From IMG/VR virus record IMGVR_UViG_3300017969_003508, positions 1 through 40,729 of that record: a stretch of 40,729 nt of DNA, one strand, 5' to 3'. A program made the translations under genes and the position numbers. Source of the stretch: a virus. Below the pieces are notes generated by a model. The model saw only the letters and a list, made by a program, of their open reading frames with translations. It had not been told where the DNA came from and made no database searches. Positions 37,150 to 40,402 of the stretch are shown here, piece after piece; position 1 is the stretch's first letter; every line of letters begins with the position of its first letter.

Positions 37150-37536
37150 TTATATTGCTGTTAAGATTACAATAGATTCGGATGAATCGTCTTGAATTTC
37201 CCAAGTATATTGGTTATTATTAAAGTCTACAGCTTTATGTCCTGTAACTTTTTTCAAAGTAATTCTGTTACCTGTTCCGTCTGAGCCAAACATTACCATT
37301 TCGCCTTCTGTTAACGAAGCAGTAGCTTTATTAACTAAACGGCAATCAAGTGTAGTTGTTCCGTCAGTTACTTTAAACTTATTAGTACCTTTTTGTGCAA
37401 CAATGTATCCAGTGTCAACTGCACCGTTGCCTGTGTTACATTCTACACGAAAGTTGTTTTCTGTTTCTGAACCTACAACACGCTGATCTGGTGTTGCTGG
37501 ATCTCCTAAATATCTTTTATTGAGTGGTCTTCCCAT
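37150..37536 (-). CDS. Small virion structural protein, 128 residues
   Basis: Starts MGRPLNKRYLGDPATPDQRV, then shows short beta strands (YIVAQKGTNKFKVTDGTTTL, VMFGSDGTGNRITLKKVTGH) and ends SSESIVILTAI. The M-G-R-P-L-N-K-[KR]-Y start is often seen in small structural proteins of marine T4-like phages; I have not verified a family. AAGGAGAA is 6 bases before the ATG. It is the first gene of a four-gene late unit and is preceded by a structured leader with three adjacent hairpins, which is unusual in this window. Confidence 0.7.
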   Translation of the reverse strand: MGRPLNKRYLGDPATPDQRVVGSETENNFRVECNTGNGAVDTGYIVAQKGTNKFKVTDGTTTLDCRLVNKATASLTEGEMVMFGSDGTGNRITLKKVTGHKAVDFNNNQYTWEIQDDSSESIVILTAI

Positions 37537-37639: not shown

Positions 37640-38128
37640 TTATAAAGAGTTGCGTCTAATACCTAGCGCACGACTTGCTGAATACAAGTCTATGCTTACA
37701 CTATTGTCTTGATTACCGCCGAGGATTGCATACATAGTTCCGTTATTTGTTTCTATCGATCTTATATAAAAACCTACGTGTCCTTGCCAACCTTGATTGC
37801 CTCTTGGGAATATAACAATGTCTCCTGCTTGTATTTCTTCTTTGCTAACTTCATCGCCCCAGGTTAAAAATGAACGAGCCATTAGAGGTACATCACTTAC
37901 ACTTTCACTACCTGATATTCCGCTTTCATTAAGGACAGCATTTACAAAAGCAGCACACCATTCTGTACGAACAGGATCAACCCCTGTGTATTCTCTAAGT
38001 TCTACTCTATCACGATATTCTTGAAGTCCAATTTTTTCTGCTGCGATTTGAATGGCTGGAGTTTGTGTAGTAATAGGCTCACATGCTATTAAGACTAAAA
38101 AAGCAAAAGGTATGATTAATTTTTTCAT
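37640..38128 (-). CDS. Lipoprotein with NlpC/P60- or CHAP-like amidase domain (lysis-type)
   Basis: 162 residues. MKK, a hydrophobic stretch and the lipobox LIAC (Cys16) indicate signal peptidase II processing and lipid anchoring. The rest matches the Cys/His peptidase layout of a small family related to NlpC/P60: TEWCAAFVNAVL with Cys58, MARSFLTWG, AGDIVIFPRG, GHVGFY with His117, then LGGNQDNSV and RALGIRR. It probably cuts peptide bonds of peptidoglycan, as an endolysin-like or envelope-modifying enzyme at the membrane. The start is fixed by the signal peptide, but no ribosome site is seen and a late box ends only 3 bases before the ATG, so its expression route is odd. A terminator and the RNA candidate lie just upstream. 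Confidence 0.78.
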   Translation of the reverse strand: MKKLIIPFAFLVLIACEPITTQTPAIQIAAEKIGLQEYRDRVELREYTGVDPVRTEWCAAFVNAVLNESGISGSESVSDVPLMARSFLTWGDEVSKEEIQAGDIVIFPRGNQGWQGHVGFYIRSIETNNGTMYAILGGNQDNSVSIDLYSASRALGIRRNSL

Positions 38129-38131
38129 AAA

Positions 38132-38140
38132 ATATTTATA
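38132..38140 (-). promoter_or_regulatory. Late promoter box, unusually close to its gene
   Basis: The minus strand reads TATAAATAT, matching all eight bases of the T4 late core, but only 3 bases separate it from the ATG of the lipoprotein gene. With T4 spacing the transcript would start at or inside the start codon. Confidence 0.5.
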
Positions 38141-38144
38141 AAGA

Positions 38145-38175
38145 AAAAGGCCCTACTGTAACAGTAGAGCCTTTT
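38145..38175 (-). terminator. Strong intrinsic terminator
   Basis: A 14-position stem with one mismatch (38145-38158 with 38162-38175) and a 3-base loop. On the minus strand the AAAGGC arm is followed by a T-rich run (TTTTTCTTT). It ends transcripts from the GT25/RNA side before the lipoprotein gene. The plus-strand reading also has TTTT, so it could work both ways. Confidence 0.85.
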
Positions 38176-38388
38176 AAATTAAGGGTGGGTGAAGGACTCA
38201 GGTCTACCTCCAACTAAGCGCCTAGATACTCGTCTATGTTACGCCTAGAACCTCAGTTCTGCTTAGTATCGCAGTTAGCATACTCCACGTCTCCGTAGTA
38301 CATGCCGGGCACTACCCCTAACCAAGTGCGCTTATCCTCTCTAGCCAAGGATTGTTAGCGCCAACCCGTATAACAACGTCTTGTTATA
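38145..38388 (-). ncRNA. Candidate structured small RNA, about 240 nt
   Basis: The largest non-coding stretch (38129-38417) holds no convincing open frame and is clearly GC-richer than its surroundings. Read on the minus strand it begins with ATAACAA-gacg-TTGTTAT, then GCGCT...ATCCT...AGGAT..AGCGC (nested stem), GTTAG/CTAAC, and ACTAAGC...GCTTAGT enclosing AGAAC-tgag-GTTCT. It ends in the strong hairpin terminator. A sigma70-like promoter sits directly upstream. The repeat CGCCTAGA occurs twice, 23 bases apart. I do not recognise tRNA, tmRNA, RNase P, SRP or 6S signatures. Family and function unknown. Confidence 0.6.
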
Positions 38389-38393
38389 TTATT

Positions 38394-38421
38394 AATATAG
38401 CATCAATAAAATAAAAGTCAA
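38394..38421 (-). promoter_or_regulatory. Sigma70-like promoter for the RNA candidate
   Basis: The minus strand has TTGACT (38416-38421), a 16-base spacer, and TATATT (38394-38399). The -35 contains the TGA stop of the GT25 gene. The predicted start is near 38386-38388, at the foot of the first RNA hairpin. Confidence 0.6.
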
Positions 38422-39125
38422 CCATTTTTTTTATTTTTTTTACCTTTTTTCCAACCTTCTGTAATAGACTCTGGATAAACTACAGCAGGATTAGTATAAG
38501 GAGTTTGGTCATCTTTAGTAAATTTTGATGTTGCAATTCTTTCCCAGCATACTACTTGCGGAGGTTCGCAAACATACAAAGGTAATACAGTTGGCGGACG
38601 CATCATAAGATATTGGTCTATTCCAATTTTTACGCCGTTATCTCTAGCATCTTCCCATAACCATTTTGCAGTTTTAGGAGTAAGAGCACACGCATGCACA
38701 CCAAGTGCCTTTTTAATTCTTACAAGTTCTGTTGCCGGTGCTGGAGGAGTATAATCATCTAAATTTTCAACTCGATGACCAAAAGTAGTTGTTACCATAT
38801 CAGGAATATTAATGTTACGTACATCACCTTTTACAACTGCATCGTGTTCTAAAATTATACACGTTTGATTTAATTCTACAATCCGTTTCCAGCATTTGAT
38901 ATGAGAAGCATGACAACAACAATTTCCCATTCTATTTTTGTAAGTTTTATCTTTTTTTGCACCTACTGATTTGAAAGCCTGTCTACATTCTAAAAATTCA
39001 ACAGCATCAATAAATTCATAAGGCAGATTATATTGTTCGCAAGACTCCGCACAAAATTGTGCATATTCCATTGAAATTGGAACTTGGAGTCTGCGAATAA
39101 TAAGTGCTTTAGAAATTTTGCTCAA
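38418..39125 (-). CDS. GT25-family glycosyltransferase (LPS-type)
   Basis: 235 residues. GNCCCHASHIKCWKRIVE followed by CIILEHDAVV corresponds to the GT25 core (G.x.C..SH...W..I......ILEDD). LGVHACALTPKTAKWLWEDA followed by KIGIDQYLM matches the later G..aY.is...A..ll......p.D..l pattern of the family. The family adds galactose or glucose to lipooligosaccharide, or to hydroxylysine in collagens. EHD in place of EDD still offers acidic metal ligands. The C-terminus is Lys-rich. The gene starts 17 bases inside the peroxiredoxin gene, so the two are coupled. The early-type promoter at 39717 likely drives both. Donor and acceptor unknown; surface glycan editing fits the other sugar genes. Confidence 0.75.
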   Translation of the reverse strand: MSKISKALIIRRLQVPISMEYAQFCAESCEQYNLPYEFIDAVEFLECRQAFKSVGAKKDKTYKNRMGNCCCHASHIKCWKRIVELNQTCIILEHDAVVKGDVRNINIPDMVTTTFGHRVENLDDYTPPAPATELVRIKKALGVHACALTPKTAKWLWEDARDNGVKIGIDQYLMMRPPTVLPLYVCEPPQVVCWERIATSKFTKDDQTPYTNPAVVYPESITEGWKKGKKNKKNG

Positions 39126-39645
39126 GATATTTAATACAATTTTCTGGAGTTGATTCTACATATGGATCATCATCTGAACCGTCGTTGTTAATGCCAGGTT
39201 CCTGCCACCATTTTTCAACTACGCCGTCGTTAATAATTGCCATATATCGCCAGCTACGTAATCCAAAACCTAAATGATTCTTGCCGATCAACATACCCAT
39301 AAAACGAGTAAAGTTGCCTGATCCATCTGGAATTACTTTTACGTTTTGAATACCTTGTGACTTTGCCCAAGCATTCATAACAAATGCATCGTTCACGCTC
39401 ATGCAGTAAATTTCATCGATGTCTTGGTTACGGATGTTATCGTAGTTTTCTTCAAATCCAGGTAGCTGAAAAGTAGAACAAGTTGGTGTGAATGCACCCG
39501 GAAGTGAAAATAGAACTACACGCTTACCTTTAAAGTAATCGTCTGTTGTTTTGTCTTCCCAACGATAAGGATTATCTCCTCCGATGCTTTCGTCTCTAAC
39601 TCGTGTTTTAAATGTTACTTGTGGTAACTTAAAGCCTTCAATCAT
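39109..39645 (-). CDS. Peroxiredoxin, Prx5 (AhpE/AhpC-TSA superfamily) type
   Basis: 178 residues. The active site LPGAFTPTCS (Thr53, Cys56) is the Prx5 form of P-x3-T-x2-C, and GLRSWRYMAIINDGVVEKWW provides the conserved Arg region and the following strands. Cys172 in ENCIKYL near the C-terminus could act as resolving cysteine. The family reduces hydrogen peroxide and organic peroxides in the cytosol. In the phage it would protect infected cells or virion assembly from oxidative stress; similar genes are known from marine phages. The leader has a hairpin and the promoter is consensus sigma70, so it is probably expressed early. It overlaps the GT25 gene by 17 bases. Intact length, no missing residues. 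Confidence 0.92.
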   Translation of the reverse strand: MIEGFKLPQVTFKTRVRDESIGGDNPYRWEDKTTDDYFKGKRVVLFSLPGAFTPTCSTFQLPGFEENYDNIRNQDIDEIYCMSVNDAFVMNAWAKSQGIQNVKVIPDGSGNFTRFMGMLIGKNHLGFGLRSWRYMAIINDGVVEKWWQEPGINNDGSDDDPYVESTPENCIKYLEQNF

Positions 39646-39684
39646 AATTTTATTTCCTATATTGTCTGTGTCTGTTGGCTACAA

Positions 39685-39712
39685 TAAAAAATATGGGCTT
39701 ATAGCCCATATT
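39685..39712 (-). terminator. Hairpin plus T-run in the peroxiredoxin leader
   Basis: A perfect 11-bp stem (39690-39700 side with 39702-39712, 10-11 pairs, 3-base loop) AATATGGGCT/AGCCCATATT is followed on the minus strand by TTTTT. It has the form of an intrinsic terminator for read-through from the right, yet it sits just after the sigma70 promoter, so for the peroxiredoxin transcript it is a 5'-terminal stem. Confidence 0.7.
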
Positions 39713-39716
39713 AATA

Positions 39717-39744
39717 ATTATACACGGATATTTATATTTGTCAA
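39717..39744 (-). promoter_or_regulatory. Consensus sigma70 promoter with a late box in its spacer
   Basis: The minus strand has TTGACA (39739-39744), a 16-base spacer and TATAAT (39717-39722). The spacer contains TATAAATAT (39728-39736), a full T4 late core. The -35 includes the TGA of the 32-residue gene. It could be read both early and late for the peroxiredoxin-GT25 pair. Confidence 0.8.
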
Positions 39745-39839
39745 CCTAAAAATACAACCATAGTGCCGCCTAGAATTGCAAGTAATATGACAAATAGCCA
39801 TACATACTGCATTGCTGTTGTATCTCTATGACTCCACAT
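39741..39839 (-). CDS. 32-residue single-pass membrane microprotein
   Basis: The sequence MWSHRDTTAMQYVWLFVILL is followed by AILGGTMVVFLG and stop. One transmembrane helix covers residues about 11-31, with a short polar, positively charged N-terminus. Its ATG shares one base with the TAA of the upstream membrane/coiled-coil gene (TAATG), so translation is coupled. That gene also has a membrane anchor, so the two may act together at the membrane, for example as a holin-like or anti-superinfection pair. The gene is too short for homology by eye. The coupling, the start codon and the clean hydrophobic helix make it credible. Confidence 0.65.
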   Translation of the reverse strand: MWSHRDTTAMQYVWLFVILLAILGGTMVVFLG

Positions 39840-40402
39840 TATTGCATCTCGTTCAATGGATTATCAAGTGCCTCCTGTAGCTTTTCAGTTAAGTCAGCCT
39901 CAACTTCATCCATTCTTTCGCGAACGTCCTTATCTTGTATTTTTAGATCATCACGTAGTTCTCTGTCTAGTGTTTTCATTTCTGTTCTAAATGCTCTAAT
40001 ATCAGTTTGCACATCACGATTCATTTCTTTAGAAGATCTTTCTACACTATCTACTACGCCTTCTATTCTACGTATATCTCCTTTAAGATCGTTTTTTATT
40101 TCATTTGTGTATGTAACTGCTTCACCTAATTGTGTTTCAATAATAGTCATTCTATCATCGTATCCTGACATCATTTCCTGGTACTCTTGCTGTTGATCCA
40201 CAAACGCAATTGCTTCTTCTATCTTTTGATACATTAGGAAGCCGCCATATAGTGATCCTATTACAGCACCTACTAAACTAAGTGCTGCCGTTGCAGTTAC
40301 AAAAGTAACTTTTATTCCAAGGACACGGAACTCTTTGTTCTTTAGATTTTCTATGCCCTCTTCCATATTTTCTAGGCTTTCACCTAAGTCCTTGTCAGCC
40401 AT
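39839..40402 (-). CDS. Membrane-anchored coiled-coil protein, 187 residues
   Basis: The N-terminus is acidic and helical (MADKDLGESLENMEEGIENL). A hydrophobic segment at about residues 27-58 (VLGIKVTFVTATAALSLVGA onward) gives one or two membrane passes. The rest, to the end, is a long charged coiled coil (RMTIIETQLGEAVTYTNEIK, EMNRDVQTDIRAFRTEMKTL, RMDEVEADLTEKLQEALDNP). A strong AGGAGAGGG ribosome site precedes it, only 11 bases after the stop of the next gene to the right. Proteins of this plan lie near structural genes in marine T4-like phages. A role in lysis timing, envelope contact or membrane-linked assembly is possible. It resembles no enzyme. Confidence 0.72.
   Translation of the reverse strand: MADKDLGESLENMEEGIENLKNKEFRVLGIKVTFVTATAALSLVGAVIGSLYGGFLMYQKIEEAIAFVDQQQEYQEMMSGYDDRMTIIETQLGEAVTYTNEIKNDLKGDIRRIEGVVDSVERSSKEMNRDVQTDIRAFRTEMKTLDRELRDDLKIQDKDVRERMDEVEADLTEKLQEALDNPLNEMQ

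Follow-up and report, generated by a model that had tools for sequence, protein, structure and literature searches.

A noncoding interval on the minus strand of the window (the whole 40,729-nt stretch of viral DNA analysed here) separates a GT25-like glycosyltransferase gene (38418..39125) from a small lipoprotein gene with a CHAP/NlpC-P60-like domain (37640..38128), both on the minus strand, and raises the questions of what RNA it encodes and whether that RNA acts on the genes beside it. The first-pass annotation described an unrecognised structured phage RNA framed by a promoter and a terminator of its own, and the homologues, covariation and context presented below agree with all of this except the word unrecognised. 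The unit lies at 38387-38145 (minus strand, as are all features located below) and consists of a promoter, a structured RNA of ~206 nt and an intrinsic terminator. The sigma-70-like promoter TTGACT-N16-TATATT (38394..38421) matches the consensus at 10 of 12 positions; its -35 box, TTGACT (38421-38416), shares bases with the GT25 stop codon, and its -10 box, TATATT (38399-38394), puts the predicted +1 at ~38387, the first base of a 20-nt hairpin with the loop GACG (38369..38388). This hairpin, which the annotation had also placed at the 5' end, is retained in 24-25 of 25 homologues, including a G-C to A-U change. The terminator (38145..38175) has the form AAAAGGCTCTACTG-TTA-CAGTAGGGCCTTTT followed by TCTTT, with a strong 14-pair stem (-17.5 kcal/mol, z -6.3).

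The RNA is GC-richer than its surroundings (50% versus 37% across the window), and the absence of a coding frame holds, with no listed ORF of at least 50 aa inside it and the nearest ORFs ending at 38418 and 38128. No tRNA or tmRNA was found in the window. The suggested comparison of folding energy with shuffled sequences gives a mixed result: the 244-nt unit including the terminator folds better than its shuffles (z -3.4), but the 206-nt body without it reaches only z -1.05, and 31 of 200 shuffles do as well. The excess is thus due to the terminator, and folding energy alone would not prove that the body is structured.

The Rfam model for manA RNA (RF01745) matches 38386-38181 (38181..38386) from end to end (model positions 1-192 of 192) with 79.3 bits against a gathering score of 55.2 and an E value of 9.8e-19, so the idea of an undescribed RNA, for which a search of Rfam had been proposed as a check, is ruled out. 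Compensatory changes are shared with canonical members in a joint alignment. The potential 5' UTR location that goes with the cis-regulatory type is not seen in the group of relatives to which the window copy belongs (clade B, below), since a terminator precedes the next gene in all 26 of its loci and that gene has its own late-promoter-like motif. Judged by model and structure, the element belongs to manA as a divergent member. The family has been known since 2010, and the window RNA is therefore not a new one; what is new is the organisation, clade-B manA being, by its predicted signals, an independent transcription unit. We found no description of a stand-alone manA in the literature searched, the coverage of which was incomplete. 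Weinberg et al. 2010 (PMC2864571) reported manA from marine sequences, cyanophage and gamma-proteobacteria and judged it a possible riboswitch, Rfam files it as Cis-reg, and the cis-regulatory reading is repeated for phage S-CREM1 (PMC9964418), which carries manA plus wcaG RNA, and in a review (PMC12197685). The wcaG RNA (RF01761) is likewise a cyanophage structured RNA but belongs to another family, and it has no match in the window. A blastn search of the RNA against phage records returned only terminator-like matches.

Relatives were collected from viral contigs by pattern scans followed by model searches of the records. The viral manA scores split into a canonical group ('A') at ~150-191 bits and a second group ('B') at 66-92 bits that includes the window, although the gap is a guide and not a definition, as one locus with 71 bits (L031) is A-type by sequence. 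Forty-two full clade-B copies were recovered, 27 of them distinct. In a MAFFT alignment of 25, not fitted to any structure, 21 of 58 pairs have changed on both sides and 99.7% of cells are paired; when the partners are slid, pairing drops to 37-45% and the double changes fall to 0-2 pairs. Clade-B sequences share much ancestry, and these counts do not represent independent events. Covarying pairs were thus found in homologues, and decayed coding sequence, which had been named as a refuting outcome, is ruled out because compensatory changes maintain the helices. Not all of the stems first drawn survive: GCGCT/AGCGC (25/25) and ATCCT/AGGAT (23/25) are conserved and both covary, but ACTAAGC/GCTTAGT (12/25) and GTTAG/CTAAC (5/25) have the conserved alternatives CTAGGCG/CGCTTAG (24/25) and CTGC/GCAG (25/25) and, judged on this alignment, are artefacts of single-sequence pairing.

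The relationship between the two groups was also probed with separate models. With A sequences as the only input, a model recovers each of the 25 clade-B copies searched (E 4e-14 to 5e-8); a B-only model detects one of 12 canonical loci, that of P-RSM4 (E 2e-13), with all of these E values rough because calibration was short. In the joint A and B alignment, which was fitted to the structure and in which P1 of the window is misaligned, 37 of 45 pairs have changed on both sides, and 96.2% are paired compared with 37-50% when slid. Clade B shares with canonical manA its helices, the end-to-end model match, a promoter at the 5' end and a single copy per phage genome. It differs in scoring about half as high, in a longer P2 (GCGC..GCGC) and longer hairpins, and in P1, the junction-closing stem, which is GGGU/ACCC in clade B (38367-38364 with 38190-38187 in the window) and GGGAG/CUCCC in canonical manA. 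A possible loop-loop pair, identified by inspection and considered for the pseudoknot proposed in the family, is UAGU/ACUA in clade B and UGGU/ACCA in canonical manA, with one compensatory change between the clades; one locus (L081, with ACCA) breaks the pair.

The flanks differ as well. Using simple consensus rules made for this analysis, and loci de-duplicated at ~92% flank identity, both sequence signals of a small-RNA gene are present at every one of the 26 non-redundant clade-B loci: a promoter directly before the RNA (shuffled rate 0.17), the -10 box of which ends 26-29 nt before P1, and an intrinsic terminator 8-11 nt after it (shuffled rate 0.027). The same promoter element as in the window is found at all of them, and the terminator sequences differ between members (GCCCG.., GCTCGC.., GGCTCTAC..). 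When 29 clade-B transcripts were folded, the terminator paired with itself, with a mean pairing probability to the manA body of 0.005, and only one member (L179) had a noticeable value (0.13). Attenuator pairing was not found in this set and no antiterminator is predicted, since the terminator arms vary and barely pair with the body. Canonical manA has a promoter at its 5' end in 47 of 53 loci, whereas the same terminator rule finds one within 75 nt in only 9 of 53; it lies mostly before genes, including gp32, talC (transaldolase), a mannose-6-phosphate isomerase-like gene (manA), purL and HAD, several of these names having been assigned from sequence by eye.

As a rule clade-B manA lies shortly behind the capsid gene gp23. 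Where enough upstream sequence is available, the nearest large gene family upstream is gp23, so named in clade B because it matches proteins annotated as major capsid, usually within 100-1600 nt; in L063, a contig related to the window, it is ~7.8 kb upstream. In the window's subgroup the GT25 gene, regarded as cargo, lies between the gp23 region and manA, and the CHAP gene follows as downstream cargo; most clade-B loci do not have it here. The genes downstream of clade-B manA vary, and include freshwater-2 RNA plus a structural gene, CHAP genes and others, and some members, the window included, carry cargo such as peroxiredoxin, GT25 and CHAP genes around manA. Freshwater-2 is matched once in each of 39 clade-B records, in eight of them with a score under the gathering threshold. 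In the window this RNA (RF02980; 37534..37615, 70 bits by Rfam) is 3' of manA but is a separate leader, directly before the structural gene at 37150-37536, and is preceded by a late-promoter-like GATAAATAC motif (37637-37629). A late-promoter-like motif, TATAAATA (38133..38140), also lies just 5' of the CHAP gene. The genes behind manA thus appear to have their own signal, as NATAAATA has 17 occurrences in upstream regions of 120 nt and two within ORFs (1.64 per kb against 0.025). Counted over the whole window, TATAAATA is not above chance, and its enrichment emerges only from the comparison of upstream regions with ORFs.

The stretch from gp23 to the next structural genes is a cargo site (37640-40402 in the window; also in L203, L206, L063 and L207), the content of which varies from phage to phage among peroxiredoxin, GT25, CHAP/NlpC lipoprotein and other small genes.

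The position behind a capsid gene is not restricted to clade B. Six cyanophages (five isolates, S-SSM5, P-HM1, MED4-213, P-RSM4 and S-TIM4, and the metagenome-assembled metaG-MbCM1) have manA right after the gp23/gp24 capsid gene, and in S-SSM5, P-HM1, MED4-213 and metaG-MbCM1 a terminator-like hairpin can be read downstream of it, in S-SSM5 behind a GATAAATA motif. With A-type and B-type gp23 proteins only ~32% identical, the T4-like lineages that share the gp23-manA neighbourhood are deeply separated, and they share it either by common descent or by convergence. The site is not fixed even within Eurybiavirus, where manA is after gp23 in P-HM1 and MED4-213 and before gp32 in P-HM2. There is exactly one manA in each of 14 named phage (isolate) records and in each of nine large clade-B records.

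We consider it probable that clade-B manA is a divergent manA RNA gene, a promoter-to-terminator unit giving a single-copy, stable and probably early phage RNA that acts in trans and does not control the adjoining gene. On the sequence signals, the sigma-70-type promoter would start transcription at the foot of the 5' hairpin, a multi-helix RNA of ~206 nt would be made, and the strong intrinsic terminator would end the transcript at ~240 nt, with the adjoining late genes predicted to use their own late-promoter-like motifs. Early expression is suggested by the location of a sigma-70-type promoter inside a late region. The most likely partner of the RNA would be a protein or ribonucleoprotein recognising the folded core, with the gene beside it left uncontrolled. 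It would share its promoter-to-terminator organisation with free-standing phage small RNAs, but unlike these it is highly structured, ~206 nt long and kin to a family filed as cis-regulatory.

The annotation had offered a regulatory RNA or a leader, and for clade B a free RNA fits much better. Were the element a riboswitch-type 5' leader here too, the terminator would be an attenuator for the CHAP lipoprotein gene or the freshwater-2/structural gene. The Cis-reg type in Rfam, the riboswitch judgement of 2010 (PMC2864571) and the canonical copies directly before gp32, talC, purL, manA and other genes all speak for such a leader; in clade B, however, a variable terminator intervenes at every locus without predicted alternative pairing to manA, the downstream gene differs among members and has its own late-promoter-like motif, and each genome has one copy, and we regard this explanation as unlikely. 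As we read the predicted signals of clade B, 'cis-regulatory riboswitch candidate' is not a fitting name for it. A broader proposal, that all manA RNAs, canonical ones included, are not riboswitches or leaders but single-copy trans-acting RNA genes that are re-sited with their promoters and sometimes co-transcribed with what follows, is plausible, though we would put it at somewhat below even. Against a trans-acting RNA gene, most canonical copies are directly upstream of genes and unterminated, as would fit a leader.

Two further explanations take the RNA as part of an mRNA. In the window the GT25 gene and manA have no terminator between them, so that the RNA might alternatively form the end of a longer mRNA, and most clade-B loci and the six cyanophages have manA a short way 3' of gp23. 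On this view manA with its terminator would stabilise or process the 3' end of the upstream message (gp23, or GT25 in the window). We think this very improbable: at loci with manA directly behind gp23 (~110 nt), a terminator for gp23 usually comes before the manA promoter; the promoter is in register with the 5' end of the RNA; and other phages have manA before gp32, purL or talC genes. In S-SSM5 the gp23 terminator hairpin overlaps the manA -35 box. The promoter directly before manA in both groups, and the many unrelated genes that follow, apparently including a tRNA gene in L022 and L104, would also suit a general 5' cap, a structure coupled to the transcription start and stabilising or boosting any early transcript, mRNA or tRNA, that begins with it, with clade B a remnant in which a terminator has replaced the mRNA. 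Against this, compensatory changes maintain the clade-B structure though no mRNA follows, and a generally useful leader should be reused rather than kept as a single copy; such a cap seems to us a rather poor prospect.

The trans-acting RNA gene that we favour bears on a family that catalogues continue to list as cis-regulatory and whose status since 2010 is that of an orphan riboswitch candidate. The insulated clade-B unit and the single copy per genome across the family point to a trans role, for which an RNA-bound partner would be sought rather than a ligand, and clade-B manA offers a compact unit for deletion and complementation.

Clade B sits in T4-like phages in which no psbA was found (14 records), and a cyanobacterial host for it is not supported. 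Its gp23 is nearest to non-cyanophage T4-like phages, although the window gp7 is nearest to that of P-HM1. An exact search of 84,980 bacterial and archaeal genomes with a single B-specific pattern gave no match. The canonical pattern had three matches in cellular genomes, one in a Prochlorococcus single-cell assembly (L223) and two in gamma-proteobacterial MAG contigs (L222 and L224); L224 carries tail-fibre-like and talC genes and so looks phage-derived. Some of the manA RNAs reported from gamma-proteobacteria may come from phage DNA.

Several features near manA RNAs merit mention in their own right. Between canonical manA and the next gene there is a conserved hairpin, ACCTAAGATGCAACTC-N4-GAGTCGGGCAGATGGT, often with a T-run, in eleven loci (L012, L016, L025, L030, L035, L046, L048, L073, L088, L102 and L105), and in several of these the gene after it is mannose-6-phosphate isomerase-like. 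Rfam scans of four of these loci gave no match to it at gathering; it is conserved beyond what a plain terminator requires, and may be a further element. In two other loci (L022 and L104) canonical manA apparently adjoins tRNA genes, read by eye. Upstream of the peroxiredoxin gene of the window, a short stretch (39690-39744, minus strand) holds a perfect TTGACA-N16-TATAAT promoter, TATAAATA and a terminator-like hairpin, and this compact overlap of terminator and promoter resembles the gp23-manA junction of S-SSM5.
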